From assembly GCA_011523635.1 (NCBI GenBank), contig WTGI01000005.1, positions 1 to 53,004 of the forward strand: DNA of 53,004 nt. The letters run 5' to 3'. Shown piece after piece: positions 8,400 to 53,004 of this stretch (position 1 is its first letter; every line of letters begins with the position of its first letter). Origin of the DNA: Acidimicrobiia bacterium. GTDB lineage: Bacteria > Actinomycetota > Acidimicrobiia > Spongiisociales > Spongiisociaceae. A program made the translations under genes and the position numbers. The notes beneath the pieces are model-generated. The model was not told the DNA's origin. It worked only from the letters and a program-made list of their open reading frames with translations, and searched no databases.

Positions 8400-8422
8400 T
8401 GCGATGCGCGGCTCTCGGAGTG

Positions 8423-9442: not shown

Positions 9443-9523
9443 CCGGCGGGATCGGGATCGAGGCTGCGCATGCTAGATTTTCGGGGCTCCCCTTCTGGCT
9501 ACTCGCTCAAAGGAAACTACACC

Positions 9524-11080: not shown

Positions 11081-11121
11081 TGCCCGGACCCACCTAGCTG
11101 CTCCCGACCTGGGGTCTGCGG

Positions 11122-11436
11122 ATGGGTGTCACCCTTTTCTACAACGCGGACTGCCCGGACTGTGGCCGCCGAGCTGGGCGTACCGCCAGGCTGGACTGGC
11201 TGCGCCGGGTGCGGGTTTCGACCGACGACTCACCCATCGGCCCGGTGCCCAGGGGCGAGATCGTGGTGGTCGACGATGACACGGGCAGGGTCTTCACCGG
11301 CGTCTACGCCACCAGGGCCGTATGCATACGGGTACCGGCCTACATGCCGTACGGGCTGGTGCTCCACATTCCGCCTCTCCTGCGGATCGCCAGCCGCGGC
11401 AAGAAGGGCTGCAACGGCGATGCCTGCGAGGTGTGA
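11122..11436 (+). CDS. DCC/DUF393-like small thiol protein
   Basis: The 104-residue protein starts with a beta strand and the thiol motif CPDC (TLFYNADCPDCGRRAGR), followed by a LDWLRRV helix. That is the layout of the DCC1-like thiol-disulfide oxidoreductase family (DUF393). It lacks a signal peptide. A distal Cys pair (CNGDAC) lies at the C-terminus. The gene is 41 bases after the aldehyde dehydrogenase on the same strand, so it may be co-transcribed, and it is followed by a perfect inverted repeat. The partner and substrate are unknown. Confidence 0.6.
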   Translation: MGVTLFYNADCPDCGRRAGRTARLDWLRRVRVSTDDSPIGPVPRGEIVVVDDDTGRVFTGVYATRAVCIRVPAYMPYGLVLHIPPLLRIASRGKKGCNGDACEV

Positions 11437-11455
11437 CCACCCCGCGAAGTGATCA

Positions 11456-11485
11456 GGCCGGCCGGTACGCGATCCCCGGCCGGCC
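11456..11485. terminator. Bidirectional terminator-like hairpin
   Basis: GGCCGGCCGG and CCGGCCGGCC form a perfect 10-bp stem with a 10-base loop, placed between two convergent genes that end 20 and 14 bases away. No U-tract follows, which is common in very high-GC genomes. Confidence 0.65.
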
Positions 11486-11499
11486 GCTTACCGGCGGCG

Positions 11500-12366
11500 C
11501 TACGTCTTGGGTCGGAGCTCGAAGATCATCGAGACCCGGGACGTGACCACCTCGGCGCCGCCGAACACGGGCGTGGGCGCGGATGCCGACTCCGCAGCCA
11601 CCGCATCGTCACCTTGCATCCTCTCGACGGCTGCATAGGGATCGAAGCCGGCCGGGGTGATCCTGACGATCCGCACGATCTCGTACCCCATGTGTCCGGC
11701 GATGGCCCGGGCAGTCGCCTGGGCGTCGTCGATGGCATCGAGCAGGGCAAGCCGCTCGAACTCGGCACGGCGGGAGACGGTGAAGTCCAACCCGTCGAAG
11801 CGAACGTGGTCTCCCCCGCTCGTGATCACCATGTCGACCAGGCCACCGGCGAACCCCGTGCCGCGGATGGCGATCGACAGCCTGTTCTCGTAGAGGAAAC
11901 CGAGCGAGACCCGGCCCTGGTCGGTCCAGTCGAACTCCTCCCGGATGCGGATGCTCACCGTCTGCAGGCCGTTCGGGGAGATACAGGTCGGAGGCGCCGT
12001 GTGATCCGCCGTCTCGGGCTCGGTCTTCGTGCAGTTCTCGGCGACCGCGTCGGCGATGGCCTGGACCGACTTGTTCCCGTCCGACACCGCGGTGATGAGC
12101 GAGTCACGCAGCACGCTCACCGTGAACCGGCCGATGGCGCCGTCGTAGCTGACGCTACGGCTGCCGACGCCCTCCACCGCCAGTTCCGTCAGCTTCGGCT
12201 CCCCCGACTCGACCTCGCCCGGCATGGTCGATCCGTTGCCTTCCGCCTGTCCTGCTCGCGCCGACGGCAGGAGCGCGGGCGTGCTCACCACGGCCAGCAC
12301 GATGATCGCCACCAGCATCACCTTGACCGTCCGGGACCTACCCGGAACCCGTATCGCTTCCCTCAT
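11500..12366 (-). CDS. Secreted SIMPL-domain (DUF541) protein
   Basis: The 288-residue protein has an N-terminal signal sequence (charged stretch, then VMLVAIIVLAVVSTPALL, then an AxA-type cleavage region near residue 36). A SIMPL/DUF541 domain follows, recognisable by LAVEGVGSRSVSYDGAIG near its start and by RAEFERLALLDAIDDAQATA and the final SMIFELRP strand. The ATG at 12366 is preferred over the longer frame because GGAGG lies 7 bases upstream and a clean signal peptide follows directly. SIMPL proteins are periplasmic or extracytoplasmic and their biochemical role is poorly defined. The gene is divergent from the predicted selenoprotein with 128 bases between them. Confidence 0.82.
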   Translation of the reverse strand: MREAIRVPGRSRTVKVMLVAIIVLAVVSTPALLPSARAGQAEGNGSTMPGEVESGEPKLTELAVEGVGSRSVSYDGAIGRFTVSVLRDSLITAVSDGNKSVQAIADAVAENCTKTEPETADHTAPPTCISPNGLQTVSIRIREEFDWTDQGRVSLGFLYENRLSIAIRGTGFAGGLVDMVITSGGDHVRFDGLDFTVSRRAEFERLALLDAIDDAQATARAIAGHMGYEIVRIVRITPAGFDPYAAVERMQGDDAVAAESASAPTPVFGGAEVVTSRVSMIFELRPKT

Positions 12367-12494
12367 CTCGATCCTCCAGATAGTTGCCGGCCGGCGCTCG
12401 ACCACGTCGATGCTCGATTCCACATACTCGAAACCTAGTGATACTGGCCGGGTATCCTGGCGCGGCACTCACCCTCCAGGTACGCGGAGCGGAC

Positions 12495-13382
12495 TTGCGG
12501 CTGATCCCTTCGGTCTTAGCAATAGCCCTGGTCGCGGTCGCGGTCATGTCCTGCGGTGGAGACACCACCGGTCCCGCCACCACTCCGGCATCCCCGGATA
12601 CGGGCATGGCCATCGACGACACGCCTGCTCCGGAAGAGCCCACCACCACCGTGGCGGATGCGGCGGCGACCGTCGCGACTACATCCGAGCCGCTCCCTAC
12701 GACCACCGGTATGACCGAGCCGGAGACGACAGCCTCTACCCCCGCGACTACCACGTCCACGACGGCCGCGGTGACCTCCGAAGAGACGGCTGCCACCACC
12801 GAGCCCTCCACCACCACGACCGCGCCACCCGAAACCACTACCACCGCCGCAGCCGAGACCACCACCACGACAGTGGCAGCCGAGACCACCACGACCACTA
12901 CCGAGGCGCTGGTCACCACTACAGCCGTACCGGCCACGACCACCGCCGCACCACCGCCCGCCACCGCGATCTCCGATGACGTGCCCGACATCGAGATGTT
13001 CGACGCCGCCACCGGAGAGTTGGTCAGCCTGCGATCGGTCGTCAAGGGCGAGAAGCCCCTGATGTTCTGGTTCTGGTCCCCCTTCTGAGAGACGTGCCGG
13101 GAGGAAGCCCCGGGCATCGAGCAGTTTGCTCGGCAGAACTCCAGCCGCCTCACCGTCATCGGGATCGGCGGCGTCGGCACCCTCGAGATCGCGCAGGAGT
13201 TCGTGGTCGAGAAGGGGGTCACGTTCACCGCGCTCTGGAGCGAGTCGCGTGACGCCTGGGAGTACTACGGGATGGACAGCACGTCGGACTTCATGCTCCT
13301 CGACAGGTTCGGCAACCGCCTGACCGAACCCGAACCCTACGACGAGCAACTCGTCATCCAGCTTCTGGACGAACTGGCCTGA
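12495..13382 (+). CDS. Predicted selenocysteine-containing thioredoxin-like lipoprotein (TGA at 13086-13088 read as Sec)
   Basis: The frame starts at TTG 12495, 5 bases after GGAG, and gives a short lipoprotein signal ending in VMSC. A long Thr/Pro/Ala-rich tether follows (to ~160), then a thioredoxin-like domain. The conventional frame ends at TGA 13086, exactly where the first active-site Cys of a CxxC thioredoxin motif belongs: MFWFWSPF-[TGA]-ETC-REEAP. The same frame stays open for 97 more codons with clear thioredoxin-fold sequence (LTVIGIGG, FMLLDRFGNR) up to TGA 13380. Read through, it gives 295 residues with Sec198 and Cys201 (UxxC). A hairpin matching the bacterial SECIS pattern lies downstream. 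It probably acts outside the membrane as a thiol/selenol oxidoreductase. The alternative is a Cys-to-stop mutation (TGC or TGT to TGA) in a decaying gene, but the undamaged 3' half argues against it. SelA/B/C/D are not in the window. Confidence 0.8.
13117..13133 (+). promoter_or_regulatory. Candidate bacterial SECIS hairpin
   Basis: CGAGC (13118-13122) pairs with GCTCG (13128-13132) around the 5-base loop AGTTT; a T-G wobble at 13117/13133 extends the stem. The loop begins 34 bases after the TGA and has G as its second base. This fits the published bSECIS rule of a small loop with G in its first two positions, 16-37 bases from the Sec codon. A second GC-rich hairpin (13095-13116, loop AGGAAG) lies between it and the TGA. 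Confidence 0.55.
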
Positions 13383-13403
13383 ACCTGTCCCTGAGATAGC
13401 TGG

Positions 13404-14591
13404 CTAAATCTGGTCCAGGCTTCTCTCCACGAAGGTCCGGTCGAGGGCGAAGGGTGAATCCTCCATCCGCCCGGTGATCAGGTCGGCCAGGATGCGACCT
13501 CCCGCCGGGGAGCACATGATGCCGTGGCCCGAGTAACCGCTGTTGACCCACAATCCGTCGATGGGCGCCTGCCCGATCAGGGGACGGTGGTCCGGGCTCA
13601 TCACGTACTGCCCGGAGTGGACCATCCACGAAAGCTCCCCCTCGTTCCAGGCCTCGCCCCAGAACGGACTGATCCGGGCGGCGGCATCCGGACTGGAGGG
13701 ATCCAGCACCCGGAACGCCATGCCGGAGCTGGGGGGGACATCCTCCACGGGTTCCCTTCCCGGCCCCCGGGGCGCGGCGTCCAGCAGTGCGGCGCCTGCC
13801 AGGGCGGGGCGCCAGTGCGTGCCGGTGTCGTCATCGATCGTCATGGGCGCGTCTGGAGGGACCCGCGCCAGATCGGGCACCACCACCTTGTGGCGGGGCT
13901 TGACCTCCAGCGGTAATTCCACGCCGAGGAGGGCGGCCAACTGGGCCGTGAAGGGTCCGGCGGCTATCACCACCTGCTCGGCGCGGATGTGACCGCTCTC
14001 CGTACCCACGTCAAAGCCTCCGGTGGGCAGTTCCCGAAGGGATAGCACCCGGCACGAAACGTGGAGTGGGGCGCCCGACGCCTGCAACAGCCCCAGGGTC
14101 AGGGCCCTCGGGTCGGCGAAGCCGTCGTCCCCCCGGTAGCGGGCGCTGACGACATCACGGCTCAGATAGGGGAACCTGCGCCGGGCCTCGTCCCCGGTCA
14201 GGATCTCGATGTCGGTCTGCCCCCAGGAGTGCTGGCGAGCCACCAACCGGCGCTGCTTGGCAGCCTTTTCCTCTGACGTGGTCGCCCAGAGGTACCCCGG
14301 CTGCCTGACCGCCAGCCCCGCCGCGTCCTGGCCGGTGATCGCGGCGAAGTTCAGGATCAGGTCGACCGTCTCGCGCACCAGGTCGGTCTCCTCCCGGTTG
14401 TCGAACTGCAGCCGGAAGGCACCGGTGGAAGCCGGGGTGGTGAGCGAGGCGGCCACAGGCCTGGCTTCCAGCACCACGGGCGACAGCCCGGCCCGGGCTG
14501 CCCAGAATGCCGTGGACGCCCCGACTATCCCGGCCCCGATGATCACCAACTCCGCGCCGGCCGGAAGGCCCCTTTCAACCTCGGACACCAT
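13404..14591 (-). CDS. FAD-dependent oxidoreductase (DAO family)
   Basis: The 395-residue protein opens with the dinucleotide motif LVIIGAGIVGASTAFWAARAG. It carries the DAO-fold patterns (QPGYLW, FADPRALTLGLL, VIAAGPFTAQLAALLG) and the C-terminal substrate/FAD motif VNSGYSGHGIM. It resembles sarcosine oxidase beta subunits and related amine oxidases more than monomeric sarcosine oxidase. It is distinct from the paralogue at 7290-8399 and probably uses a different amine. It converges on the predicted selenoprotein gene with 21 bases between them. No operon partner is visible upstream. Confidence 0.83.
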   Translation of the reverse strand: MVSEVERGLPAGAELVIIGAGIVGASTAFWAARAGLSPVVLEARPVAASLTTPASTGAFRLQFDNREETDLVRETVDLILNFAAITGQDAAGLAVRQPGYLWATTSEEKAAKQRRLVARQHSWGQTDIEILTGDEARRRFPYLSRDVVSARYRGDDGFADPRALTLGLLQASGAPLHVSCRVLSLRELPTGGFDVGTESGHIRAEQVVIAAGPFTAQLAALLGVELPLEVKPRHKVVVPDLARVPPDAPMTIDDDTGTHWRPALAGAALLDAAPRGPGREPVEDVPPSSGMAFRVLDPSSPDAAARISPFWGEAWNEGELSWMVHSGQYVMSPDHRPLIGQAPIDGLWVNSGYSGHGIMCSPAGGRILADLITGRMEDSPFALDRTFVERSLDQI

Positions 14592-14770
14592 GCCACAAAG
14601 CTAGTTCGGTACCAGGCCAAGCCACAAGGGGGACGGCCGGGACCGAGACCGAGAACGGTGCTCCGCAGGGTGGAAGTCCGGATGAACAAGGTCGCCGGCG
14701 CTGGACGGTTCCAACCTCGTCAGGTGTCTCGTCCAGGTCCGACTCCACTGGGGTCCGGTCGGCGAACTCC

Positions 14771-15070
14771 CTAGACGATGCTGTGATCCCCGCACCGTTC
14801 CCACTTCACATGCCGCAGCCCGCTCACTCGTGGAGTCCCGAGGAAGAACGTTGCCCGGCCGTCAGGCGCCCATCTCATCTCGAAGAGGCCCGGCACCCCT
14901 TGTACGCCTTTCACACGGAGGCCGGGGCGGAACCAGTGCCGTTCGCCTGCCTCCATCGCCATGAGGTCATCGACGAACCGTCCGAGAGCGGTCAGAAAGC
15001 GGGTCCGCTGCGCCGGCGTGAGGCGCCGAACGTCGTAGAGGAACGCATCAGACTCTTCATGAGTAGGCAC
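14771..15070 (-). CDS. RelE/HigB-like toxin
   Basis: The 99-residue basic protein has the pattern GLFEMRWAPDGRATFFLG and a C-terminal HVKWERCGDHSIV. This is the core of a RelE/ParE-superfamily toxin group common in actinobacteria (usual form ...WRR-GTHDIF). These proteins act as ribosome-dependent mRNA endonucleases. The GTG start lies 12 bases after the stop of a small upstream ORF, the expected antitoxin position. The C-terminal GTH seen in many relatives is CGDH here, so activity is uncertain. Confidence 0.6.
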   Translation of the reverse strand: MPTHEESDAFLYDVRRLTPAQRTRFLTALGRFVDDLMAMEAGERHWFRPGLRVKGVQGVPGLFEMRWAPDGRATFFLGTPRVSGLRHVKWERCGDHSIV

Positions 15071-15082
15071 TTGTGGGGTGGA

Positions 15083-15307
15083 CTAGCCGCTATTCCGCTC
15101 GTAAGGCTGCGACTCGATACATGCGAGGAACTCCTCGCTGCTCGCGTGGAAGTGCGTTCGACCGGCCGCGAAGTCACCGGTCCTGTCGGGATTCGTTCCC
15201 ACGGACGCATCCAAATCAGTCAGTGTCAATTCCTCAGCGTCGACTTCGGTCGTTGGAACAGGAGTCACGTTGTTTCTCCGCTTCTGTGCCTCTTCAACCA
15301 TCAGCAT
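15083..15307 (-). CDS. Small acidic protein, putative antitoxin
   Basis: This 74-residue ORF sits just upstream of the RelE-like toxin, with 12 bases between stop and GTG start. It is acidic in its first half (EVDAEELTLTDLDA) and I see no recognisable HTH or ribbon-helix-helix motif. Its call rests on position and size only. An alternative ATG two codons in (MVEEAQKRR) is equally possible. Confidence 0.4.
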   Translation of the reverse strand: MLMVEEAQKRRNNVTPVPTTEVDAEELTLTDLDASVGTNPDRTGDFAAGRTHFHASSEEFLACIESQPYERNSG

Positions 15308-15470
15308 ACAACGTATCGTCGTTACGGTATAGCCCCTCGACGCGGGGAGTGGTTGCTACGTTCGCAATCCCAGCCATGAGCACCGCTTCCCCGGGTCGGA
15401 CACCTCGATGGTAGCCCACCGGGGAGTCTCCCTTAGGAGGGATCAGCCGGTTGCCGGGGCCGAAGCCCGG

Positions 15471-16511
15471 TCAGTCGGTGGCCGGCTTGCGGGCGCGGAT
15501 GAAGTAGGCGGGTGTGAAGATGCCGAGCCGGCCCGCCTCGACCAGGGCCGCCGCGCAGATGTTAAGGGTCTCCGCCACCCGCACCGATCCCTTCGGCGCG
15601 ATGCGGAGGGCCTCGAGCAGCCTGAGCGTACTCCGGGTGACCGAGCGTCCGATCCTCGAACTCCGGAAGGTCGCCAGGGAGATCCCCGAACCGACCAGAG
15701 GCTGGTACCAGGGAACCGACGGACCGGTCGGCACCATGACATCCTGCGTCTCCAGCACGTCGAATCCCACCGCCACGAGCGCTTCGTCCAAGGTCCGGCG
15801 CTCGTCGAGCTCGAGTATGCCGCCGCCCAGTTCGATATCGGCCTTGATCCTGCGGTGAAGGGGATCCTCGGGGTCGTAGCGATCGGTCATGCACCATTCG
15901 TAGGAAGCGAAGCAGGCACCCGGCTTCAGCAGCCGGAACGCCTCGCCGTAGATGCTGACCTTGTCCGGGGCGTGGCAGGTCGCCTCTATGGAGAAAACGG
16001 CGTCGAACGAGCCGTCAGGAGCGTCCACGTCGAGGAAGTCGCAGTGCATGAATTCGGCCAGATGGGTCAGCTCCGCCTCCTCCGCATACTTGCGGGCGTG
16101 CTCGAGCTGGTAGGCGTTGCTGTTGACGCCCACGATCCGGGCGCCGGTGAACCGGGCGATCTCCAGGAGCGGCCCGCCGACGCCGCAGCCGAGGTCGGCG
16201 ACCACCATGCCGGGTCCCAGCCCGAGCTTGTGGGCCAGGTAGTGCTGGTGGCGGGCCAGCGACGCCTTGAAGCTCTCGCCGGGGACCCGAGGGGCGAAAT
16301 GGAACGACCTTCCCCACCCGAACTCGAAGAAGTCCGTGACCACGTTGTAGTAGAGATCGTTGATCTCCTTGTGGTCGAGCGGTGTCCTCTCCCGCTTGTC
16401 ACGCCGAGTCGTGCGGAAGCGCTGGTCGTACTCACCGATGGTCCGGGCGATGCCGGAAGTGGCACCCTTCAGGGAGTTGTAAAGCTTGAACGCCACGGTT
16501 CTCTCCAGCAT
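15471..16511 (-). CDS. Sterol C-24 methyltransferase homologue (bacterial SMT)
   Basis: From the ATG at 16511 the protein has 346 residues. It shows the full eukaryotic-type SMT pattern: YYNVVTDFFEFGWGRSFHF (54-72), the SAM motif LGCGVGG (107-113), IEATCHAPD (175-183) and YEWCMTDRYDP (204-214), with the C-terminal GRLGIFTPAYFIRARKP. These blocks match ERG6-type enzymes, which add a methyl group from SAM to C-24 of the sterol side chain. The longer frame back to 16670 is rejected because its extra residues lack family similarity. No other sterol gene is visible nearby, so it may act on host-derived sterols (inference). It is divergent from a cyclophilin gene. Other small-molecule C-methyltransferases are a weaker alternative, because YEWCMTD is specific to SMTs. 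Confidence 0.85.
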   Translation of the reverse strand: MLERTVAFKLYNSLKGATSGIARTIGEYDQRFRTTRRDKRERTPLDHKEINDLYYNVVTDFFEFGWGRSFHFAPRVPGESFKASLARHQHYLAHKLGLGPGMVVADLGCGVGGPLLEIARFTGARIVGVNSNAYQLEHARKYAEEAELTHLAEFMHCDFLDVDAPDGSFDAVFSIEATCHAPDKVSIYGEAFRLLKPGACFASYEWCMTDRYDPEDPLHRRIKADIELGGGILELDERRTLDEALVAVGFDVLETQDVMVPTGPSVPWYQPLVGSGISLATFRSSRIGRSVTRSTLRLLEALRIAPKGSVRVAETLNICAAALVEAGRLGIFTPAYFIRARKPATD

Positions 16512-38215: not shown

Positions 38216-38701
38216 CTAGGCGGCGGCGTGGCTCAACACCGCTCTGATGTCGTCGTAGTCCAACCCGTACGTGTCGCTGAACTCCTCCGCGGTCTTCCCG
38301 CCCTTGAGGTAGTGGAAGAGCGACTCAACCGGGAACTGGGTGCCCCGGAAGGCTGGGATGTTCCTGGCGCTGAGCCGCACAGCGGGGCAGCCGGTCAGGT
38401 CGACCACTTCCACCGGAGGGGCGTCGTCCAGGTAGCGGAACGCTTCGATCACAGCATCCGCAGCTATTCGGAACGTATCAGCGAACCCCTCACAAGTACC
38501 ACCCGCTGCGATCCAATCAACCAGTCCCTCCACTGCTATACGCCGCCCGATGAACGATGGGTGACTCCCCACCCGTCCAGGAACATATTCGACTGCGGAA
38601 CAGCCGCGCCAGTCGATCATTCTCAGGACCATCGGATCGTTCTGGGACTCCGCGGACAGGTCGTCCGTGCCCGGTTGGGCTGCTGTGACAGTGGTTACCA
38701 T
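38216..38701 (-). CDS. Double-DUF433 antitoxin
   Basis: The 161-residue protein contains two DUF433-like units: GRVGSHPSFIGRRIAVEGLVDWIAAGGTCEGFADTF (split here: first unit ~45-80) and a second at ~115-155 (IPAFRGTQFPVESLFHYL, then KGGKTAEEFSDTYGLDYDDI). Single-unit DUF433 antitoxins are about 75-110 residues, so this one is a tandem fusion. It is followed by a DUF5615 toxin gene. The upstream flank is A+T-rich (CTCTATAATGAGAAAAC on the minus strand, with TATAAT), a likely promoter directly ahead of the start. Confidence 0.8.
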   Translation of the reverse strand: MVTTVTAAQPGTDDLSAESQNDPMVLRMIDWRGCSAVEYVPGRVGSHPSFIGRRIAVEGLVDWIAAGGTCEGFADTFRIAADAVIEAFRYLDDAPPVEVVDLTGCPAVRLSARNIPAFRGTQFPVESLFHYLKGGKTAEEFSDTYGLDYDDIRAVLSHAAA

Positions 38702-38958: not shown

Positions 38959-41319
<2,361 letters not shown>

Positions 41320-41370
41320 GCTACCGGCTCCCAGCGTGTCGTTCACAGAACGGTGCAGCAACCGACCTCA

Positions 41371-41835
41371 CGACCGGGATCGGCTGCGACAGCATCGATC
41401 TGGAGGCCGCCGCCCGCGGGGTCGCCGCCATCGGTACCGGCCTGAGGATGCGCTTACATGCATACGACCCCTACATCGCCGAAGACGCTCTCCCGCACCG
41501 GTGGTCCGGGCGCCGACTTTGGAAGAGTTACTGATCGCCAGCGACGTAGTGTCGGTCCACGTAGCCATGAACTCCACCAGCGCGCGGACGTTCCGACGCC
41601 CAGGCGTTCGCCACGGTGAAGCCGGGCGCGGTGTTCGTCATCGCGGCGCGCGGCGGCCGCGTCGACCACGATGCCCTGCTGGAGGCGCTGGACCGCGGCC
41701 ACCTCTTCGGCGGACGAAGCCCGTGTGCGAATGTTCCAACCCGTCCGTCGAGCAGGCAATAATGGTCATTGAAGGGAGCAGACCTCCACACATCGCCAAC
41801 CCGCCGGCTGGAAGGGCGTGATCGCTCGCCTGTAA
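41371..41835 (+). pseudogene. Decayed copy of the D-2-hydroxyacid dehydrogenase
   Basis: Starts at GGGATCGGCTGCGACAGCAT (TGIGCDSIDLEAA) and ends at the TAA matching the intact gene at 30460-31401. Compared with it, ~230 bases are missing after the first block (the join lies in GTCGCCGCCATCGG) and ~120 bases after CACCTCTTCGG. Small indels shift the frame in between. The 5' third of the gene is absent. The catalytic His and the substrate loop are lost, so it cannot make an enzyme. Confidence 0.9.
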
Positions 41836-42422: not shown

Positions 42423-45400
42423 TCACTGTTTGGCAGCTCTCACGTAGTGAGGGATTACTCGCAGCTTGACCCACGGCCGGTGGTGCAGACTCTGGATGAT
42501 GCAATCCATGGAGGCAAGTCCGCGAACGATGCTTCCGAGGTGGTCCGCCTCCGCCCCGGATGTCTTACCGATGAGTGTCCGTTGGATCTCGCGTACCTGC
42601 TCCGCTTTGGTCTGGTTGAAGATAAGGCGTGTGCCGGTGGATCCAGCAATCTGGTCAGGCAGATCCCTCGGGAACTGAGTGGCTACGATGACCCCCAGAC
42701 CAAAGGCGCGCCCTTCGCGCATTAGCGGCTCCAGAAAAGGGGACTTGACGAGTCTCCACGCCTCATCAAGGACGAGAAGGCGCTCTAGTCGGTGTCGATG
42801 TTCACGTCGTATTAGGTAGTTGTAAACAGCCATTAGGAAGAACTCAGCCACAGCGTCCTTTACCCGGTCACCAGGAAGCTGACTGATTCGTATCACTGTT
42901 GGAGTCCTGAGAAATTCATCTAGGTTCGTTGCATCAGCTCCACTGCTGAACAAACCGAGATCGAAGATTGGGGAAAGTCGACCTAAGAGTGGCGTCGCGT
43001 TCTCGCGGACGAGAACATCGCGAACAGCATCAAATGGTAGATAGTGCTGTCCTTCAGTCGGAAGGAACGACCGACCATCAATACCAGCGATAGTGTAAGT
43101 CTCCTTCATTGCCTCACGGAGGGTAAACGCTTGCTGGTCACCAAGTCTATATATGCGTTGAATCATATTAGTCAGTTGATGAACATGGCTAATAGGGTTT
43201 ACAAGGCCACTCTCGCGATCTATAGGTGGAACCATCGGGTTGAACGGAAGGCTGTCAATGTTGGCGTCATGGACCACCAACCCTTCGGGTCCTGCATAGT
43301 CACGCTTCGAGTAGTCGTCCTTAAAGTCAAGCACGAGCGCGGGTAGTCCTTGTGGTAGTAGTTCGTGGACCAAAGCCTTCGTCGCTTGGGTCTTGCCGCT
43401 ACCCGTCTCCCCGGAGATTGATATGTGCGGGTTGTTAAGTGACTGCTCGGGGTTATGTGGGTCAAACCACACCTGACGGGCTGCACCCGAACCAGGCATA
43501 CGGTGACCGATCATGACCCTGGGTCTAGACGTCCCGCCTGTCGTGGAGTCATTCCGAGCGGAGCCTAAATCGGGCTTGTGCTCCTTGCTTGACAGAGGAT
43601 ACGACTCTCGTGCTGTCGGGGCAAACACATTGTCATCATTATTCGCTTGTTGACGATGCACTGTCCCATCAGGGCCTTGATCTGGTGTCAATGCTGATTT
43701 AACGCTCTCGACACCGTCTTCATTGAGGTCGATGATATCCACCGGCACACATCGGTTATCATCGATCGCATAAACGGTACGTAGAGGAGAGAGACTCCCT
43801 CGCGAATAGCCCAGATGCATCTCAACTAACGCACACCGAAGATCGACTTCCGGCTCACCATCGAATAGCCGTCCAGATCGCTTCGCCCAACGCTGCTTGG
43901 TTATGCTGTTATAGCGTGCCTTGCAGAGTTCCCTATACAAGTGGCCACGCAGAATTTCACGCCTTGACGGGGTCACTAACAAGTCCGCATCCGACAGATC
44001 CAGTATCTGACGGATTAGCCGGTAGGTGGATAACAGCTGATCGACCGCCCTCCCCGTAACATTGTTTCCGCTGATCTGATACTCTCGGGCCGTATCGGTG
44101 CGCGTCTTGACCTCTACCACTGTGACAATAAACCGATCGTCAGCAGCGTCAATGACCAGGAGATCTGCCCGACGAGGATCGTCCCCCAGGTGTAGCCAGC
44201 GTCTCGCCTGTGTACTGTCAAGACTTAGAAGAACCCGATCGTAACCGTCCGGAGTGAGATCACGCAAAGCCTGTACAGCTACGAGCAGACCAAGTAGTCC
44301 GCGTACATGGGATTGAGTTACTTCACCTGATCGGTTTGGGCGCAACGACAATATTCCCGCGTCGAGAAGATCGCTCAACTCTTCAAGAAGGACATCAAGC
44401 TTGTCGTCGGTGACGTACGTATTAAATTGACGCACCACATCGCGAAGACCTCGACGAAAGGCAGCAGGGGAGCGAGAGAAGGCGGCCATATCCCGAGTGC
44501 CTTCGCGTTCCGTCAAGATCCGTAGCGCCATGAGCTGTAAGTCACGATCTATATGGCTATCGGCAATCACATACCAAGGCACTAATTGAACTGCTGCTCG
44601 AAAGGACTCCTTGAGCGCTGCACCCTGGTGCATCGTAGCATAGGAGTTTACGTCAGTACCAATAGCGAGTGTAGCCAACGAATTGTACTCTGCAAGGATC
44701 CCACCGAGACCCGGTTCCATGTCTAAACTGTTTGTTGAGATTCGGTATATGATCCGTCTTCTATTGACGAGCGGCTGAATCTCCTGAACAGGGGCTCCAG
44801 CGCTCGCAGTTTCCCGTTCTGTAAGATCGAAGGCCACGCATATGTGGGCTCGGCTGTCGTCTAGGGGACCAACTACATTAGATGGGATACGTTTTGTCTC
44901 GAACGTGAAGCGGCGTTGCGTATGATCGCCAAAGCGGTGCTGAATACGACGTTCCTCATCGCTAGATAGGTTGAGCTCAGTTCTGAGTGCATTGCTGCGC
45001 CGTAGGACAGTCACATGTGCTCCGCGAAGACGTCCTGTGTCTGCGAGGTCACAGCACATGGACAAGAAGATGCCCGCATCGACGGGATCGAGTAGTACGA
45101 GGCGGAATCCCTCGGAAGCTGCTGGGTGTAAGTCAACGAACGCTTCGATTAACTTTCGGATGACTCGGGTGCCGTCCTTCGGATCACGGGCGGTTGCTTG
45201 CACACTGAAGTGTGGGAGATCACCGAGACGACCTGAGAAGGGAATGCTGTTAATGCCCCGGTTGGAGATGGCACGAGGTATACCAATTGACGAGAAGAAG
45301 TACGGGACTCCACTCTGGTCCAACTCAGATCGGACGAGCGTACGGTCTCGGGCCGTAAGGAGGTCCTTCTGTGTGGTAAGAACACGAACATACTCGCTAT

Positions 45401-46661
45401 AGTGCCAAAGTAACATCGGATGCAAAGGGGTTAGAAGAGCCACAAGTGTTGAACCGTTATCGAGGAACACTGTATCGAGAAGCAGAAGCAATTCTACGAA
45501 ATAGCGAGCATCGTCGCCGAACTCGGTATGCAACTCGCGATACGCAGCGCTTGTGACAGTGATCAGCTCCCGGTAAGCACTGACAACGTTCGTGACGAGG
45601 TTCCGGGTCGTCGGTGCTGTTGCGACCAACAGCGGAGCCGCGTGCAATTCTCCGAGGTACGGAAGTAGGGCAGTGCGGGCATTATCGTAATTGTTGAAAG
45701 CCTTGAGGATCGGCCTACCGGGTACAGCTTCGGCGAAAGCCTCCAGAAACCTATCAATTGTAAGACGCTCGAATCGGCGAAGGACTTTAGCGGAGTGTTG
45801 GAATCCTTGGACCATGGTGTCGATGTCTTCGCCATGTGACGACACCAAGCCTCCGTAGCTATCGTCACCGATCAGTCGGTTGACCATGTTTATGACAGCA
45901 GTTGAGACTTGGTGATCTACTTGAAGTCCGTCAGGTAAGGTGACGGAGACAGGCACGGGTCTAATCGTTGATTCGTTGATATTCTCTAGTTGGGCCCTCA
46001 CCTGTGTCATGGCTTCGTCTGGGCACATGTCGGCAACGGCATTGTCGGTGTCTTCGTCGTTCAATAGACTCTCAACGGCGAGGCCTGTCAACGTACGAGG
46101 GACCTGACGCCGATTATCAGGGTCAGGATCCGGCTTGGGCTTCGGGGGCTTCGGGCGCTGGCGTCTGATGTTCAGCAGTTGCCGCGCGTCCGATGCGGTA
46201 AGGCTTAGCGGGCCGCCACGCCGGTAGTCTTGGAGACGGCGAAGTAGGTGCCTTAGATGTGTACGTTGTTCTGCGTCGCTCTCTTCGCTCAATACCTTGC
46301 CGACCCTTTGACGGTCTTCTTCGCTAAAGTTCGCGAGACGTAAGGCGATGGCCCGGTTGTCCCTGAGCCTCTTGCGGAGCTGTACTTTGGTGGGCTTGTT
46401 GAAGAACGCCGGATCGGGTAGAAGACCGAGGCGGTTTATCTCCAGCGCCGCTCTATCGCGCAGAGCACGCCCATCCAAGTCGCTCAAAGCGAGGTAATAG
46501 TCGATAAGATCAAGAAAGGAGATTTGTTCATCACTGCCGATAATCTGCCACCAACGAGGTAGGACTTCGTTCGGTTCACTGAACTTGGTACATGCGTGCT
46601 CAATAAGAAGACCCCGGAGCCTCGAGGGACCGACCGGAAAGAAGTCTTCCAACGAAGTCAA
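42423..46661 (-). CDS. Giant HerA/DptH-like ATPase with PD-(D/E)xK-like motif (defence operon; main part)
   Basis: From a possible TTG at 46661 this is 1412 residues. It begins in a conserved-looking block (SLEDFFPVGPSRLRGLLIEH) that seems to continue the upstream ORF in another frame. A Pro/Lys linker (PKPPKPKPDPDPD) lies near residue 175. At ~833-852 RADLLVID...TVVEVKTR fits the D-x(n)-ExK core of a restriction-type nuclease. The C-terminal HerA/FtsK-like motor has Walker A GETGSGKT (1084-1091), LVLDFKDDYS, Walker B LLVLDEAW (1295-1302) and sensor VIVATQFPRDLP. Domain order and size recall DptH, the ATPase of phosphorothioation-dependent restriction. Base composition is clearly lower in GC than the flanks. 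A role in recognising and cutting invading DNA is inferred. Confidence 0.75.
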   Translation of the reverse strand: MTSLEDFFPVGPSRLRGLLIEHACTKFSEPNEVLPRWWQIIGSDEQISFLDLIDYYLALSDLDGRALRDRAALEINRLGLLPDPAFFNKPTKVQLRKRLRDNRAIALRLANFSEEDRQRVGKVLSEESDAEQRTHLRHLLRRLQDYRRGGPLSLTASDARQLLNIRRQRPKPPKPKPDPDPDNRRQVPRTLTGLAVESLLNDEDTDNAVADMCPDEAMTQVRAQLENINESTIRPVPVSVTLPDGLQVDHQVSTAVINMVNRLIGDDSYGGLVSSHGEDIDTMVQGFQHSAKVLRRFERLTIDRFLEAFAEAVPGRPILKAFNNYDNARTALLPYLGELHAAPLLVATAPTTRNLVTNVVSAYRELITVTSAAYRELHTEFGDDARYFVELLLLLDTVFLDNGSTLVALLTPLHPMLLWHYSEYVRVLTTQKDLLTARDRTLVRSELDQSGVPYFFSSIGIPRAISNRGINSIPFSGRLGDLPHFSVQATARDPKDGTRVIRKLIEAFVDLHPAASEGFRLVLLDPVDAGIFLSMCCDLADTGRLRGAHVTVLRRSNALRTELNLSSDEERRIQHRFGDHTQRRFTFETKRIPSNVVGPLDDSRAHICVAFDLTERETASAGAPVQEIQPLVNRRRIIYRISTNSLDMEPGLGGILAEYNSLATLAIGTDVNSYATMHQGAALKESFRAAVQLVPWYVIADSHIDRDLQLMALRILTEREGTRDMAAFSRSPAAFRRGLRDVVRQFNTYVTDDKLDVLLEELSDLLDAGILSLRPNRSGEVTQSHVRGLLGLLVAVQALRDLTPDGYDRVLLSLDSTQARRWLHLGDDPRRADLLVIDAADDRFIVTVVEVKTRTDTAREYQISGNNVTGRAVDQLLSTYRLIRQILDLSDADLLVTPSRREILRGHLYRELCKARYNSITKQRWAKRSGRLFDGEPEVDLRCALVEMHLGYSRGSLSPLRTVYAIDDNRCVPVDIIDLNEDGVESVKSALTPDQGPDGTVHRQQANNDDNVFAPTARESYPLSSKEHKPDLGSARNDSTTGGTSRPRVMIGHRMPGSGAARQVWFDPHNPEQSLNNPHISISGETGSGKTQATKALVHELLPQGLPALVLDFKDDYSKRDYAGPEGLVVHDANIDSLPFNPMVPPIDRESGLVNPISHVHQLTNMIQRIYRLGDQQAFTLREAMKETYTIAGIDGRSFLPTEGQHYLPFDAVRDVLVRENATPLLGRLSPIFDLGLFSSGADATNLDEFLRTPTVIRISQLPGDRVKDAVAEFFLMAVYNYLIRREHRHRLERLLVLDEAWRLVKSPFLEPLMREGRAFGLGVIVATQFPRDLPDQIAGSTGTRLIFNQTKAEQVREIQRTLIGKTSGAEADHLGSIVRGLASMDCIIQSLHHRPWVKLRVIPHYVRAAKQ

Positions 46662-46986
46662 CTTGGCGGGTGTCCGACTTCGTGATGACGACGATGAGGG
46701 CGTCAAGGTTTCTCGTGTTTCGCCAGATCTCAGCTTGCTCGATGCTGGTGGTGAAGATGTCTTCTGTAACACCCGGGGCTCTTGCCCTATCCGCAGCCGT
46801 GGCGTCGAGGTAGGCGATACACAGATCAATACCCTCAGCCAGAAGTGTGCTCAACGACGGGATAACGGCGTCGGGGTCTAGGTGGGGTACGTCGCGTACG
46901 AGGACACCAGGTTCGCCCTGTGCCTTGCGCAGGGCCTCGGCTAGGAGCTGGGCCACTAACTGACTGGCGTCAGACGGTTGTGTCAT
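46600..46986 (-). CDS. N-terminal part of the DptH-like protein, frame-shifted (or separate small protein)
   Basis: This 128-codon ORF begins MTQPSDASQLVAQLLAEALR and contains GIDLCIAYLDATA and IWRNTRNLDALIVVITKSDTR. Near codon 108 (around 46661) the protein-like sequence stops, and the neighbouring frame continues it as KLTSLEDFFPVGPS. The remaining ~20 codons of this frame look random. Strand-helix-strand logic and the RN...LIVVITKSD...SLEDFF pattern point to one polypeptide with the giant ATPase. Its ATG overlaps the stop of the previous gene (ATGA). Either a sequencing or assembly indel, a true mutation, or recoding is present. Confidence 0.6.
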   Translation of the reverse strand: MTQPSDASQLVAQLLAEALRKAQGEPGVLVRDVPHLDPDAVIPSLSTLLAEGIDLCIAYLDATAADRARAPGVTEDIFTTSIEQAEIWRNTRNLDALIVVITKSDTRQVDFVGRLLSGRSLEAPGSSY

Positions 46987-48500
46987 ACGGTGGTCCAGTC
47001 TGTTGTCACGATGGTACGGCCATCTGCATATGACTTCGCAAATCCGATGTCGATGATCAGCTCTCGGAAGGCGTGGAGATTAGCCCGTAAATCCGTCTCA
47101 TTCACTGAAATCGACCTGCGCAAGAACGGTCCAGGCTGAAGGTCATTATGACGGATGATATCAAAGTCGATAGGCCGGCCCAGAACGATTCCGAAGGAAT
47201 CTCGGAGGCGGTCAAGGAACCTGTCGAAGTCCACCGTCTCGTCGGGTGTCACTGTCGATACCACCAATAGCTCCGCAAATTCGGCATTGGCCCCGTAGCG
47301 TTTATGCTCCCTACCACCGCGACCGCGATTGTCGTAGGGTAATAGGTAGCCAGCGCGGCGGCCCAGCGCGAGTAGCGTATTCCAAGGTAGTCCCCTCACT
47401 TCTTTGGGCCCAACTCGGGAGTATCCGACCTTCCAGAAGGCCTCAACTAGCGCGTCCACCGGGTCGTCCTCGACAAGGTGTGCTCTGTACTCTGCCTTGA
47501 CAGCGTCCCATTGACCGTCTGAAGGTAGAGTGCCGACGTATGAATCGGGGTCCTCACCGCAGACACTGGTCACATACGCTCGTATCCGGCTGACCACAAG
47601 TTGCTCAATGGCGCGGAACCCTGCCTGTAGGGTTGCTGCTGACGCATCGCGAAGCGATCGCCGCCTACCATCGAACAAGTCGAGCAAGATTGGCGGTTGG
47701 GGCCCGGCCGGTATTACGTCATTGCATCGACGGATCATATGGACGTGTGTGGCGAAGACTCCAAAGAGCACGAGGCGTCGCAGGGTAGTCAGCTTCGAAC
47801 TTTGGGTTTCCTCGTACCTGGCGAGCTGATCGACTCGATCGCGCAATACCCTCAGTGTAGGGGAACAGAAATTACCCTTGTCGTCAGTCCTAAGGAGCGC
47901 CGTGCCCCGCTCGAAGCGCACGGTAGCCCCCGCTCCGAGCGCCGCCGACTGTTCACTACAATACTCCAATAGCGGCAACGCAATCATTGTCCACGGGTCG
48001 GTCTCACTCTCCAGAAGGCGCCGCAGTAGGTTTGCCGCCGTGCCAGCGTTCCTCGGGATGCCAGCTGTCAAAAGCCTGGCGAGGAAGTCGCCGCAGCCGT
48101 TATCGGAAATATCACCGGTGACCATCTTGGCGTGTGACAGTGTGAATGATGCCTGCGAGGGAAATACTGCATCGTCCGCACCGAGGGTGTCCTTGGCGAG
48201 CGACCGGAAACGGGTCATCACTTCGTCGGTCGGTTGGTTGCCGAACTGATCTGTGAAGCAATCCCCATAGTCGGCTAGGATCTCCTCGTTCGGATTGCGT
48301 TCCTCGCTGAAACTACGCCTCTGGTCCTTGACGTACTGTCTCAGAACCCGCGCTAGGGGTCTAAAGTCGCTTTGGGTTTCTAGTAAGCGACGAGCCGTCC
48401 CGTTGGCTACATGGACCGGCTTCATAGAGCTGTTTGTTGGGATAAAGCCGAAGTCCTCATCGTAGATGCGGCGTAGTAACGTCTTTGGCGTCTCGGTCAC
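46983..48500 (-). CDS. Unrecognised 505-residue defence-operon protein (DptG-like position)
   Basis: A soluble, mainly helical protein of 505 residues with no P-loop or nuclease motif that I can identify. It starts MTETPKTLLRRIYDEDFGFI and ends in an alpha-beta part (FAELLVVSTVTPDETVDFDRF...FGIVLGRPIDF). The GTG start overlaps the previous stop (GTGA) and its own stop overlaps the next start (ATGA), so all operon proteins should be made in fixed proportion. By position between the P-loop ATPase and the HerA-like gene it corresponds to DptG in dptFGH operons. I see no direct sequence match to DptG, so that remains an inference. Confidence 0.75.
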   Translation of the reverse strand: MTETPKTLLRRIYDEDFGFIPTNSSMKPVHVANGTARRLLETQSDFRPLARVLRQYVKDQRRSFSEERNPNEEILADYGDCFTDQFGNQPTDEVMTRFRSLAKDTLGADDAVFPSQASFTLSHAKMVTGDISDNGCGDFLARLLTAGIPRNAGTAANLLRRLLESETDPWTMIALPLLEYCSEQSAALGAGATVRFERGTALLRTDDKGNFCSPTLRVLRDRVDQLARYEETQSSKLTTLRRLVLFGVFATHVHMIRRCNDVIPAGPQPPILLDLFDGRRRSLRDASAATLQAGFRAIEQLVVSRIRAYVTSVCGEDPDSYVGTLPSDGQWDAVKAEYRAHLVEDDPVDALVEAFWKVGYSRVGPKEVRGLPWNTLLALGRRAGYLLPYDNRGRGGREHKRYGANAEFAELLVVSTVTPDETVDFDRFLDRLRDSFGIVLGRPIDFDIIRHNDLQPGPFLRRSISVNETDLRANLHAFRELIIDIGFAKSYADGRTIVTTDWTTV

Positions 48501-51500
48501 AGTCTGTACTTCCTCTGTTCGAATCGAACTTGAACTGTCGCCTGTCGGTTGGTTTCAACATTTCGAATGTCCAAATCTGCGATCGCTAGCGGATTGCTCA
48601 AGTTGCGGTGTAACTCGTCTGCGAAGCGAGTGACCTTACGAGCCACACTGCGGGACCAAGTCGAGTGTCCGAGTCCGGCAGCTGCATCGCGAAGCGTCAG
48701 ATACACCTCGCGATCGACGAGCAGCCTACTTGGAGGGGTTCCGGGTGCATTAGTAACGGTTAGCGCGAACTGACTCATGCGACGCATGTCCGGTGGTAGC
48801 CATAGGGTAACCCACTCCGCAAGTTGCGGAGTCTCGGCCTCGATCGCCTCGGAAGATTGTTTGTATAGGGAGACGAAGGCCGTCGGTGCCCTGACATCGT
48901 ACCGGTGACTTTGCCAAAGCGTGATCTCGCGTTCGCCGTCCTCGGAGGGGCAGTCGGGCTCGAAGAAACGGTTGATAGCAAGTACCATTTCCCGTACAAG
49001 CTGCGGATCGCCCTCTAGGCCGCCAGCCAGAACGCGGTCGAACGCGCTCTCGTCGGAGGGTAGAGATCCCAGTAGTTCGTCACCGCGGGCGTGCTCAAAG
49101 TAGAAGCGGCGCTTCGCGATGCGAAAGCAATAGTCCCGGTCCTCGGCAGCACATGAGGCAGGCGCGATCGGAACATCATTCTCGTCAAGCCATTCGCTTG
49201 GGTCAGTCGTACCACGCCAGAGTTCCTCATCGATTTCCGGATGTGTGACGACCGCTGGATCTAAAGACCGGCGAACAAGATCAAAGAGTGGGCCAATCCC
49301 GCCCTCAAATACCAGGTTCGCAAAGCAGAAGCGACCATCACCCTGACTAGTAGCACGAACCGTCGCGTTTGTACCCCCGGTAATGAGATATGCGAGAAAT
49401 CCCATCAGTTGCCGCATTGTCGTATGCTCGCCTCGTCGGGCGGCTTGTTCGAGAAGGCTGGCAAGTCTATCTTTAGCCCTATGCGTCCGAAGGCGGGTGA
49501 CATTGACTTTCGCTGGATCAGTGTCGGTCAGTTGTGATGTAAATCGATCATCAATGAGCCGCTCGACCGCCTCAAAGATGACGCGCCTAGTAAGGATGTC
49601 CCGGAGGTTAAGATCGATCACACGCACTGGGTCTCTCGGTGGGTCCGGCGGATCACCAAAGTAGACTGCCGACCTCACCTGCCGTACGGATTCCGTGACG
49701 GGCTCGAAGCCTTCTCTGGTGGCGAGGCGCTCGAGTTCCAAGAGTGGCCATTCGTTAATGGCTAGTACAAAGGCACGACCTCCAATGTGACAGGAACGCC
49801 ACTTTTGGAGAATCTCGGTATCACTGCACGCGTTCGCGTCGGTGATGACAACAGCGTTGTAGGTCGACTCGAGCACTTGCCGAAGCCGTTCGATGACAAA
49901 GGTCTTACCATCCCCCGGATTGCCTGTCATGATCAATTGCAGCCCGTCACTGGCACACGTGAGTAGGTACTCGTCTAAGTCGAGATCGACATGGAGCCAG
50001 TCAAGTTCCTCAAGGGTGAGTCGATCTGCATAGCTGTTGGCGTTGCGATACAAGCGTTCAACAAATGTAATCGGGTCGTCCCCGCCATCCACTCGGAGGT
50101 TGGTCGTAGAAAGAGCTTCTTGGGGCCGACGCACCACATACACCGATGTACCAAGTTTAGACGCTACCTTGCTTAGGAGGTGATCGTCGCGCCTGCTCTC
50201 ACGTATCTTTTCCACCGTACCGGAACGTTTAAGCCGCGGTTTAGCCCAGCGCTCATACCAATACGATGCAATCTGAGCAGAGATCTCCGCGCCACCATCT
50301 TGCGGCAGTATGTAGTCTGGGCACCGGCTCAATCCGAGTAGAATATCGAAGGCGTTGGTTGCCAGAGGCACCACGTAGAGCAGGCGCGGTGAGTGGTGTC
50401 GAAGGTAATCGTTGGATCGTAAGCCGAGACCGTCGAGACCCATACGCAAGGAACGTAGCTTCGGGCTTGTGCCTTCGCCAAACAGATTATTTACCACCCG
50501 TTGGCCGTCGTTCGCGAGGTGAGCAACGGCTAGAAGACTCTCGGTGGTATCCGAAGCAAACTGCACGGTTCCGAAACTGTCAGTTGTGCCGACTCGTGTG
50601 TAGCGTATTTCGCCGACACCGCCAGCTATAGGGCCGGGTATACGGATGCGATTGTATTGTGCACTACCCAACGCATAAAGGCTTGAGGTGGTGAGAACGG
50701 AGAGAGCAGGTGTCCGGCGGACAGGATAACCAGCCATACCGGAGGCGATCAGACTCACCTTTCCATCATATCTGTCCCTTAGGTCACACACAACCTGAGG
50801 ACTAGCCACCAACATTGCGACGAGCTTCCCTCCAAGAATCTGATTATATGGTGGGACAGCTCCGCACGTGATGATCTCCATAATGTTCTCGGCGACGGCC
50901 TGCTGCTTGATTCGCCGAAGCGCGACTTTAACAGCCCGCTGGCCGACCTCGGTGCGTAGGAGCTCTAGAAGGTTGTCTGAGCCATCCGAGATGCCGCTCT
51001 CCTCAAAGACCGTGAGGGCACGAATAGTGTCGGCCAGGTTGGCCGCACGCTTTCGTCGGTAGAGTTGAGTCTCCGCGACGGCCATCCAATCGACATCGTC
51101 TGCTTGCCCGCGCGCGACAAGATTGTGCATCTCGCGGATGAAGAGGTACTCCTCAGTCCGGAACTCACCCGCGCGGCCTAAGTCAACACGACGGATAGAG
51201 TCTGCTGACCTTTCAATTTCGAGTAGATGGGTAACAGCATCCCCGGCCGGTAGACAGTCTATACCAAGGTCCTTCTTGTAGACGCGCTCATACTCCGCAC
51301 GCATAAATTCGACAAGATGGTTAGCTATCTTGTAACGTTCAACAGCACTTGCTGACTCCAGCCGATCGGAAAGGGCAGAGGTAGACCATCCAAGAGCCTC
51401 GTCACGCTGGGATAGACCAAGAACCGGATTGCCCAGACCGACGATCCCGATGATGGGGCGGTTTGGTCCGGCTTCGTCACGAATAAGATAGTGGATGTTT

Positions 51501-52243
51501 CTACCTGGTGTTTGCTGGTACGGGATGGACCACTGGAGACGAGCGTAACGCCATATGTCCTGAAGTCTCAGCCCAGTACATGCGTCATGAGCGTTGCTTG
51601 TTATGAGTTCAAGAACTGGTCGGATTGCAGTGCTGGCAGCGTTAGTGCCATCGATACGTCCGAGCCGATCGGCCAGGTCTGGCCCATCAGCGAACAGCGT
51701 TGCGACGCCATGCTTCTCCATTCTGGCAACAAACGCGGAAACCGAATCAGAGAGGAGTTGGTCGGCCTTGGCAAACTTGAAAGAGTTCCTAAGTTTCAAC
51801 TTCGCGGCAGAGGTATCGTCGCCGACTGTTGCCAGAGTTGGAGGCAGGAAATAGATACCACCGTCGTCCACATCAACAAACCATCCCTGGAGAACAAGAT
51901 CGCGTAGCAACCTAATCGCAGCCTGATAGTAGACAGTCGGCTGGAGAGCGTCCACGCTGACACCCAGAGTAACAAGCTGGGTCCGAAGTTCCTCAGCAGC
52001 ATCAATTGATGCCTGAATAGCTTCCACGCGGCCAGCAAAGTCATGAGTCCGGAGGTCATGGACCAAGGACACCAAAGACTGATAGTAGCCGAGACTAAGA
52101 CGAGGCCGGAACCTCCGAGGCTCGACCGAGCCCGCCCGTATGCCCGACGGTGACTTGAGTGCTGACAAAGGCGGCATCAAATGGCTACCAGCCGTTGCCG
52201 CTTGCCACCCAAGGGATCCAAGTCCATCGGGTTGAAGATCCAA
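48497..52243 (-). CDS. DruA (DUF4338)-P-loop ATPase fusion protein
   Basis: About 1248 residues. Residues ~50-680 match the Druantia DruA/DUF4338 family: SIPYQQTPGRNIHYLIRD (239-256), CGAVPPYNQILGGKLVAML (460-478), SLYALGSAQYNRIRIPG (521-537) and FGEGTSPKLRSLRMGLDGLG (588-607). The remainder is a P-loop ATPase: GNPGDGKT (774-781), a Walker B-like AFVLAINEWP (824-833) and a long helical C-terminus. The GxxGDGKT form and length recall DptF. DruA and a DptF-like ATPase in one chain is an arrangement I do not know from described systems. The TTG at 52243 or ATG at 52177 may be the start; neither has a strong ribosome site. This is the first gene of the operon. Confidence 0.8.
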   Translation of the reverse strand: MDLQPDGLGSLGWQAATAGSHLMPPLSALKSPSGIRAGSVEPRRFRPRLSLGYYQSLVSLVHDLRTHDFAGRVEAIQASIDAAEELRTQLVTLGVSVDALQPTVYYQAAIRLLRDLVLQGWFVDVDDGGIYFLPPTLATVGDDTSAAKLKLRNSFKFAKADQLLSDSVSAFVARMEKHGVATLFADGPDLADRLGRIDGTNAASTAIRPVLELITSNAHDACTGLRLQDIWRYARLQWSIPYQQTPGRNIHYLIRDEAGPNRPIIGIVGLGNPVLGLSQRDEALGWSTSALSDRLESASAVERYKIANHLVEFMRAEYERVYKKDLGIDCLPAGDAVTHLLEIERSADSIRRVDLGRAGEFRTEEYLFIREMHNLVARGQADDVDWMAVAETQLYRRKRAANLADTIRALTVFEESGISDGSDNLLELLRTEVGQRAVKVALRRIKQQAVAENIMEIITCGAVPPYNQILGGKLVAMLVASPQVVCDLRDRYDGKVSLIASGMAGYPVRRTPALSVLTTSSLYALGSAQYNRIRIPGPIAGGVGEIRYTRVGTTDSFGTVQFASDTTESLLAVAHLANDGQRVVNNLFGEGTSPKLRSLRMGLDGLGLRSNDYLRHHSPRLLYVVPLATNAFDILLGLSRCPDYILPQDGGAEISAQIASYWYERWAKPRLKRSGTVEKIRESRRDDHLLSKVASKLGTSVYVVRRPQEALSTTNLRVDGGDDPITFVERLYRNANSYADRLTLEELDWLHVDLDLDEYLLTCASDGLQLIMTGNPGDGKTFVIERLRQVLESTYNAVVITDANACSDTEILQKWRSCHIGGRAFVLAINEWPLLELERLATREGFEPVTESVRQVRSAVYFGDPPDPPRDPVRVIDLNLRDILTRRVIFEAVERLIDDRFTSQLTDTDPAKVNVTRLRTHRAKDRLASLLEQAARRGEHTTMRQLMGFLAYLITGGTNATVRATSQGDGRFCFANLVFEGGIGPLFDLVRRSLDPAVVTHPEIDEELWRGTTDPSEWLDENDVPIAPASCAAEDRDYCFRIAKRRFYFEHARGDELLGSLPSDESAFDRVLAGGLEGDPQLVREMVLAINRFFEPDCPSEDGEREITLWQSHRYDVRAPTAFVSLYKQSSEAIEAETPQLAEWVTLWLPPDMRRMSQFALTVTNAPGTPPSRLLVDREVYLTLRDAAAGLGHSTWSRSVARKVTRFADELHRNLSNPLAIADLDIRNVETNRQATVQVRFEQRKYRL

Positions 52244-53004
52244 ACACCCTTAGGCCCGTTGCCACAGTAGACATCACCAGAGTGGTACTGGATTGGCTCG
52301 GCCCTGGTACCAATTGGAGGTACCCATTCGTAGTCTGCCCACCTCTTCTTCCTCCGTACTTCTCCGCAACCCCTCGAAGCGACACTCTTTCGGCTCGCGA
52401 TTCAAGTCTAGGGTACTCACCTCGTGACGTGGTCCCCGTCGAGTGATCAGACGCGCCTTCGTGTCCACCGGTTGGTGAACGTGCGTAGACGCAATCTTCA
52501 GCCAATACCTGGCGACGATCTTGAAGCCAGGGACTCGCACGACCGACTTCGGTCATCACACACCAGTATGGATCAGCGATGTGACAGAGTCCCCGCCAGC
52601 TGCGTTCCGATGCCTCCACTTCGACAAGTGCGTCAAGGCTGGGCGATCCCAGTGGAGCTCGTGCTGGGCGTCCCGCAGGGGCTCCCATCGAGACCACCAG
52701 ACCGTCCCCTCTACACGACAGGCCCTGAGGCACAAAGGTATAGGTCTCAGCCCGAGCGCGTGATCTCGTCCTTGAGTTCGATACGCTGCGGATGAACCCT
52801 CTTCCCGACAACCCGACACTCTCAGTTTCCCTTAGCAGCCCCACCCACCCGCCGAAGCATGCCAGGACGCCATCTCCGAGCCGGTAACCACCGACACCCA
52901 CGGGAGCGAGAGACAGCATCCGGAGTGGCCTCGTAGTTAGCTGGCCATATCCGGCATGTCGGGCTCCGCAGGACTAGGTGCCTCTCGCGGCTACCAGTCC
53001 AGCT
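52244..53004. other. Gene-poor flank upstream of the defence operon
   Basis: Open frames on both strands here have no recognisable family, no good start sites, and composition like non-coding DNA. The operon promoter should lie in the first part, but no convincing -35/-10 pair was found. The DNA could contain worn mobile-element sequence. Confidence 0.4.

Follow-up and report, generated by a model that had tools for sequence, protein, structure and literature searches.

A three-gene set on the minus strand (positions 42423-52243) of the window, by which the whole 53,004-nucleotide stretch of Acidimicrobiia DNA analyzed here is meant, is probably (roughly 60%) a DNA-restriction defense of the DndFGH/SspFGH kind that would act without phosphorothioate (PT) marks and would carry DruA of Druantia as the N-terminal half of its subunit F. 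Based on the ORF list and profile searches, the set comprises F (a DruA-DndF/SspF fusion), G and H, in the gene order of the DndFGH/SspFGH restriction modules (Table 1). The open reading frames lie where an earlier note, made from the sequence alone, had put them, and its other points on layout hold as well, namely an order mirroring dptF-dptG-dptH with DruA leading, 4-base gene overlaps (GTGA at F/G and ATGA at G/H) and a GC content below that of the flanks (0.554 for the operon vs 0.671). As judged by alignment with three relatives (L002-L004), ATG at 52177 is a likelier start of F than TTG at 52243 (1248 aa). The end of the contig, at 53004, lies 0.8 kb upstream of F, which places the region upstream of F outside view in this genome. 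An FGH operon with DruA as its only extra partner raises the question of what protects the host, because known FGH modules damage unmarked host DNA, and the answer would also bear on the role of DruA in Druantia.

Table 1 Features of the three-gene set and of its downstream border in the window.
Feature	Positions	Strand	Basis and remarks
Gene F, DruA-DndF/SspF fusion	48497..52177	-	1226 aa; ORF and PADLOC DruA1, SspF
DruA (DUF4338) region of F	50183..51928	-	PADLOC PDLC00001, Pfam PF14236
DndF/SspF core of F, P-loop kinase-like domain and C-terminal region	48500..50146	-	PADLOC SspF; alignment
Walker A GNPGDGKT of F	49901..49924	-	Alignment and motif scan
Walker-B-like LAINEWPL of F, with the Asn described for DndF	49742..49765	-	Alignment and motif scan
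Gene G, SspG/DndG-like	46983..48500	-	505 aa; PADLOC SspG
Gene H, DndH/SspH-like restriction-translocase	42423..46986	-	PADLOC DndH; split by one-base insertion
One-base insertion in H, extra C in GACACC[C]GCCAAG	46668..46670	-	DNA compared with L002, L004, L005
PD-(D/E)xK-type nuclease motif RADLLVID...VVEVK of H	44106..44171	-	Intact; motif scan
HerA/FtsK-type ATPase domain of H	42531..43592	-	Walker A GETGSGKT, Walker B LVLDEAW, sensor ATQFP
Decayed 2-hydroxyacid dehydrogenase gene	about 41376-41760	+	Pfam PF02826, E 1.4e-11; internal stops

The N-terminal half of F matches DruA over residues 106-687, both in PADLOC (DruA1, PDLC00001, E 2.1e-139) and in Pfam (PF14236, E 3e-36), and the motif CGAVPPYNQILGGK is conserved in this region in an alignment of 11 DruA sequences. 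A P-loop core follows, in which residues 825-961 match the PADLOC SspF profile (best E 3.4e-5; an archaeal homolog, E 1.7e-16), bearing out the DruA-DptF fusion that had been proposed. When the core was aligned with the separate archaeal F proteins, TGNPGDGKT was invariant and AIN[ED]xPL was conserved; an Asn in the Walker B position is a feature of DndF (PMC10853773). DUF4338 has been assigned a GNAT fold (PMC10853773); the AF2 model of F, from a six-row alignment, has a pLDDT of 47.5, too poor for examining this fold, and a Foldseek search with it returned nothing below E 0.001. Sequence searches of solved structures gave no convincing relative of F or G, and a DruA tree did not resolve single from several origins of the FGH-linked DruA.

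The 505-aa protein, taken as unknown in the earlier note, is SspG-like (PADLOC, E 3.7e-8). DndG/SspG-type proteins are DNA-binding proteins of 450-500 aa with three winged helices; G shows a profile match to them, its AF2 model (pLDDT 41) being too poor for examining a triple winged helix. Homologs of G occupy the same place in L002, L004 and L005, and others, about 22-23% identical, do so in Hymenobacter and haloarchaea. A tblastn search with G in the plasmids returned nothing, and a profile was needed to recover plasmid G, because G diverges fast.

The third subunit, H, matches DndH over the ATPase region (PADLOC, E 8.6e-30), Pfam agrees on a HerA-type domain, and the intact H homolog of L002 matches the solved DptH structure 7es4 (E 9.8e-16), in keeping with the DptH-like nuclease-ATPase named in the earlier note. 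The nuclease motif is present in 9 of the 10 H sequences scanned and was not found in the C-terminal piece from Hymenobacter. Between L002 and haloarchaeal H, the N-terminal parts are 24% identical across ~1,100 residues (E 4e-63), and the ATPase parts align at the P-loop only. The sensor of the window type is ATQFP, with a DndH match, and that of the archaeal type is STQRP or ATQRP, with an SspH match; such an apparent domain exchange fits the 'HerA/FtsK capture' of Rakesh et al. (PMC10853773).

In the window, H is split into an N-terminal piece (46986-46600) and the rest (46829-42423). Relatives have H in one piece (1534 aa in L002, 1460 aa or more in L005), and the 128-aa ORF that had been counted as a possible fourth gene corresponds to its N-terminus. 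Both a separate fourth gene and programmed frameshifting were set aside on the same grounds: relatives read through in one frame, and the site is one extra C. The frame of H stays open for ~1,410 codons past the insertion, and pN/pS vs L002 is 0.29 for F, 0.26 for G and 0.30 for H after the frameshift, values that point to purifying selection on all three genes, in H also past the frameshift. The insertion is therefore either recent or a sequencing error, and unless it is the latter, the window copy of H may be inactive. A decaying, non-functional remnant would account for the insertion and for the decayed dehydrogenase at the border, and H is interrupted in L004 too; however, the absence of further stops over so long a frame, a pN/pS in H like that in F and G, and the chance of a sequencing error all argue against decay, which we regard as unlikely.

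The decayed dehydrogenase is a downstream border marker outside the system. An IS remnant had been reported at this border, but no transposase was found there, in the fragment at ~41.93-42.1 kb, by Pfam or by tblastn against plasmids. An IS256-like identity of the fragment at ~42 kb was confirmed by neither search. Further downstream of the system, the window encodes a UvrA-like ABC ATPase of 800 aa (38959-41361) and a protein with two DUF433 matches (38216-38701).

To find relatives, 84,980 species genomes were scanned. As a result, four further loci were obtained, three from other Actinomycetota and one from Dormibacterota, with F and G 46-69% identical where complete. F, G and H are all intact in L002 (Ilumatobacteraceae), the contig stops inside G in L003 (Acidimicrobiia), and H runs beyond the locus edge in L005 (Dormibacterota). 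In L004 (Actinomycetes, 7290-15755), the reading frame of H is broken up by insertions, called from their sequences as an IS256-like transposase gene, a group II intron-type reverse transcriptase and an IS3-like element. The fused F set is rare: no full-length F relative was found in the 9 other genomes of the genus, in 395 further genomes sampled from the phylum or in 200 further ones sampled from Dormibacterota. A Hymenobacter canadensis plasmid carries the fused DruA-F, G and a split H. Among phage-like contigs, two carry complete fused DruA-F, G and H, and a third breaks off within G; DruA is fused in all three of these F-core hits, which were found with the F core alone as query, a query itself built from DruA-F sets. 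Five haloarchaeal plasmids have four separate genes, ordered DruA-F-G-H, and a DruE1 helicase gene adjoins the operon in four of the five. No DruE was found at the bacterial fused loci within the flanks covered, nor near L002-L005. The co-conservation check suggested in the earlier note was thus answered in favor of the set, as the same genes recur in other Actinomycetota, Dormibacterota, Hymenobacter, phage-like contigs and haloarchaea.

Several neighborhoods were recorded in addition. The haloarchaeal plasmid loci L018 (3034-21800), L019, L020 and L024, with separate DruA-F-G-H genes and adjoining DruE1, are Druantia/SspFGH composites, and two unassigned genes lie alongside in L018-L020. In Halobaculum (L021, 13004-19160), DruA and F are whole, and G and H are in several ORFs. 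An SfsA-like gene follows H in the two complete phage-like contigs (L043, 15795-16499; L045, 15843-16523; 53% identical to each other); L043 has phage-type DUF2800 and Enc34 ssDNA-binding genes among its neighbors, and LmuA/LmuB-like (Lamassu) genes lie upstream in L045. A common upstream partner in the two phage-like contigs was considered and rejected, the two proteins being unrelated. In Leisingera (L023, 10019-13761), the gene of an MzaB-like ATPase, which appears to be another ATPase partner for DruA, overlaps the DruA gene by 4 bases, and DruE comes next.

Genes for PT modification were searched for with the DndC, DndD and PF01507 profiles. DndC (TIGR03183) was found in none of five genomes (that of the window and those of four relatives), DndD (TIGR03185) gave no match above cut-off in the same five, and no PAPS-reductase-type PF01507 gene (DndC/SspD type) was found in the genome of the window (97% complete) or in six plasmids, which agrees with the earlier note that no dnd phosphorothioation gene is present in the window. 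Besides the DruA-F sets, only three SspF-type loci were found in 396 Actinomycetota. In L051 (8415-17984), the gene of a C5-cytosine methyltransferase shares 4 bases with F, and G and H follow; this locus is predicted to be an FGH restriction operon with DNA methylation replacing phosphorothioation. In L050 (70-17434), an N6-methyltransferase and a specificity subunit stand directly before a NERD-kinase-F fusion. This locus matches mad2, mad5, mad6, mad7 and mad8 of MADS, and the C-terminus of its mad6 protein and its mad7 and mad8 proteins match the SspF, SspG and HerA/SspH profiles, suggesting that MADS has an FGH module as its effector. The third, L049, has a NERD-kinase-F fusion, G and H with no modification gene adjoining. 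Because one of these loci has a C5-methyltransferase, one an N6-methyltransferase and one no modification gene, F-G-H appears to be a common effector that is combined with various front ends. The loci together suggest one effector paired with phosphorothioation, N6-methylation (MADS), C5-methylation or DruA, and the role of DruA is therefore testable by exchange or deletion.

In the proposed mechanism, F (nucleotide-binding), G (DNA-binding) and H (nuclease and HerA translocase) would assemble into a single complex; this would engage DNA that enters the cell, translocate, and cut or nick that DNA. Nickase and translocase activities have been reported for DndFGH (PMC11662687). In the case of SspFGH, DNA without PT is damaged and cells lacking PT suffer toxicity (PMC8092258), and since the host's own DNA is damaged when it lacks PT, an unmarked FGH needs another safeguard. 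With less certainty, DruA may fill the slot taken by a modification module (PT genes or an N6- or C5-methyltransferase) in related FGH systems, and may serve self/non-self discrimination or as a trigger, either by recognizing DNA that is unmarked or foreign or by placing a mark on that of the host. Of these roles, recognition of foreign DNA by DruA, which the earlier note had raised, is possible. Against this explanation stand L049, in which no modification gene adjoins, so that the slot before F is not always filled; nine amino-methyltransferase hits in the genome of the window, away from the system, which could supply a mark; the contig end, which hides what precedes F; the backup-effector role suggested in the literature; and the state of H, frameshifted in the window and broken by insertions in L004. 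A bolder proposal, which seems quite improbable, would have DruA mark or recognize self in a distinct class of FGH systems that spans bacteria and archaea and uses neither phosphorothioation nor a methyltransferase, with host DNA marked or verified by a GNAT-type enzyme on the sensor subunit, as part of the same chain. If true, it would also explain the job of DruA in Druantia.

The best explanation has a narrower form, in which DruA is a GNAT-type transferase that marks host DNA much as phage Mom would and FGH spares the marked DNA, with marker and checkpoint in one chain. Some GNAT-like enzymes, such as Mom, modify DNA, but we know of no DNA-modifying activity of DruA. The GNAT fold assigned to DUF4338 (PMC10853773), the DNA methyltransferases in the slot before F in L050 and L051, and the lack of detected PT genes alongside the toxicity of markless FGH in the tested case (PMC8092258) would suit such a marker, whereas the AF2 model of F is too poor for the GNAT fold and a modifying enzyme fused to a sensor subunit would be unusual; a DNA-marking DruA is thus rather unlikely. 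Rakesh et al. put forward a backup-effector role for every N-terminal DndF fusion (PMC10853773), so that the DUF4338/GNAT part would hit host molecules once the main restriction is blocked, and clear effectors do occupy the same place on other F proteins (NERD and kinase domains, L049 and L050). This role is doubtful for DruA, which in haloarchaea is a separate leading gene beside DruE, more a core component than an optional add-on, and which is on all F relatives from the F-core search, though that query was built from such sets. FGH could also be guarded by unlinked host methyltransferases, DruA being only structural or regulatory: N6- or N4-type methyltransferases occur elsewhere in all five genomes, and C5-type ones in two relatives only. 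However, no methyltransferase was recognized by inspection among the flank genes, and the sporadic occurrence of the set in distant phyla favors self-sufficiency, making an unlinked guard very unlikely.

A PT-independent FGH restriction system with DruA input thus remains the preferred reading, and the set fits the DndFGH/SspFGH module in the Walker A, Walker B Asn and SspF match of F and in the REase motif and C-terminal HerA/FtsK ATPase of H, in a frameshifted copy. The earlier note had called it a new defense system, but standalone DndFGH and DndF fused to DUF4338 were both described by Rakesh, Aravind and Krishnan (NAR 2024, PMC10853773), so the kind is already known. Shared with the systems in that paper are the fusion itself (DUF4338 is DruA in Pfam), the F-G-H order, independence of PT genes, the nuclease and HerA domains in H, and the Walker B Asn in F. 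Its main text does not mention Druantia and proposes the backup-effector role for N-terminal fusions; neither the separate four-gene archaeal form nor the DruE neighborhood was found in it.

With SspFGH (Wang et al., mBio 2021, PMC8092258), the set shares the SspF and SspG profile matches of F and G, the three-gene module and, in SspH, an FtsK-like C-terminus. SspFGH is paired with SspABCD ssDNA phosphorothioation, whereas no phosphorothioation genes of a PT-dependent Dnd or Ssp system were found here, and H in the window has a DndH-type HerA part. Druantia type I has in common with the set a full-length DruA and, in haloarchaea, the DruE1 helicase gene adjoining DruA-F-G-H; the bacterial fused loci differ in that they are without the DruE helicase and have DruA fused to F and linked to another effector. 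In a genome-wide search for DruE, the genome of the window gave only a 92-position helicase-fragment match to DruE1 (E 2.9e-11), on another contig. MADS (methylation-associated defense system, mad1-8) has counterparts of F, G and H in mad6, mad7 and mad8, but the N6-methyltransferase, the specificity subunit and the NERD-kinase on F of the MADS-like L050 are all absent from the window system. Relative to the Dnd/Ssp literature compared, a comparison short of a full literature check, the new points are that the DUF4338 of the fusion is a full-length Druantia type I DruA, that a split four-gene archaeal form lies next to DruE, that DruA-F-G-H is shared across distant lineages, and that it parallels methyltransferase-linked FGH and MADS.
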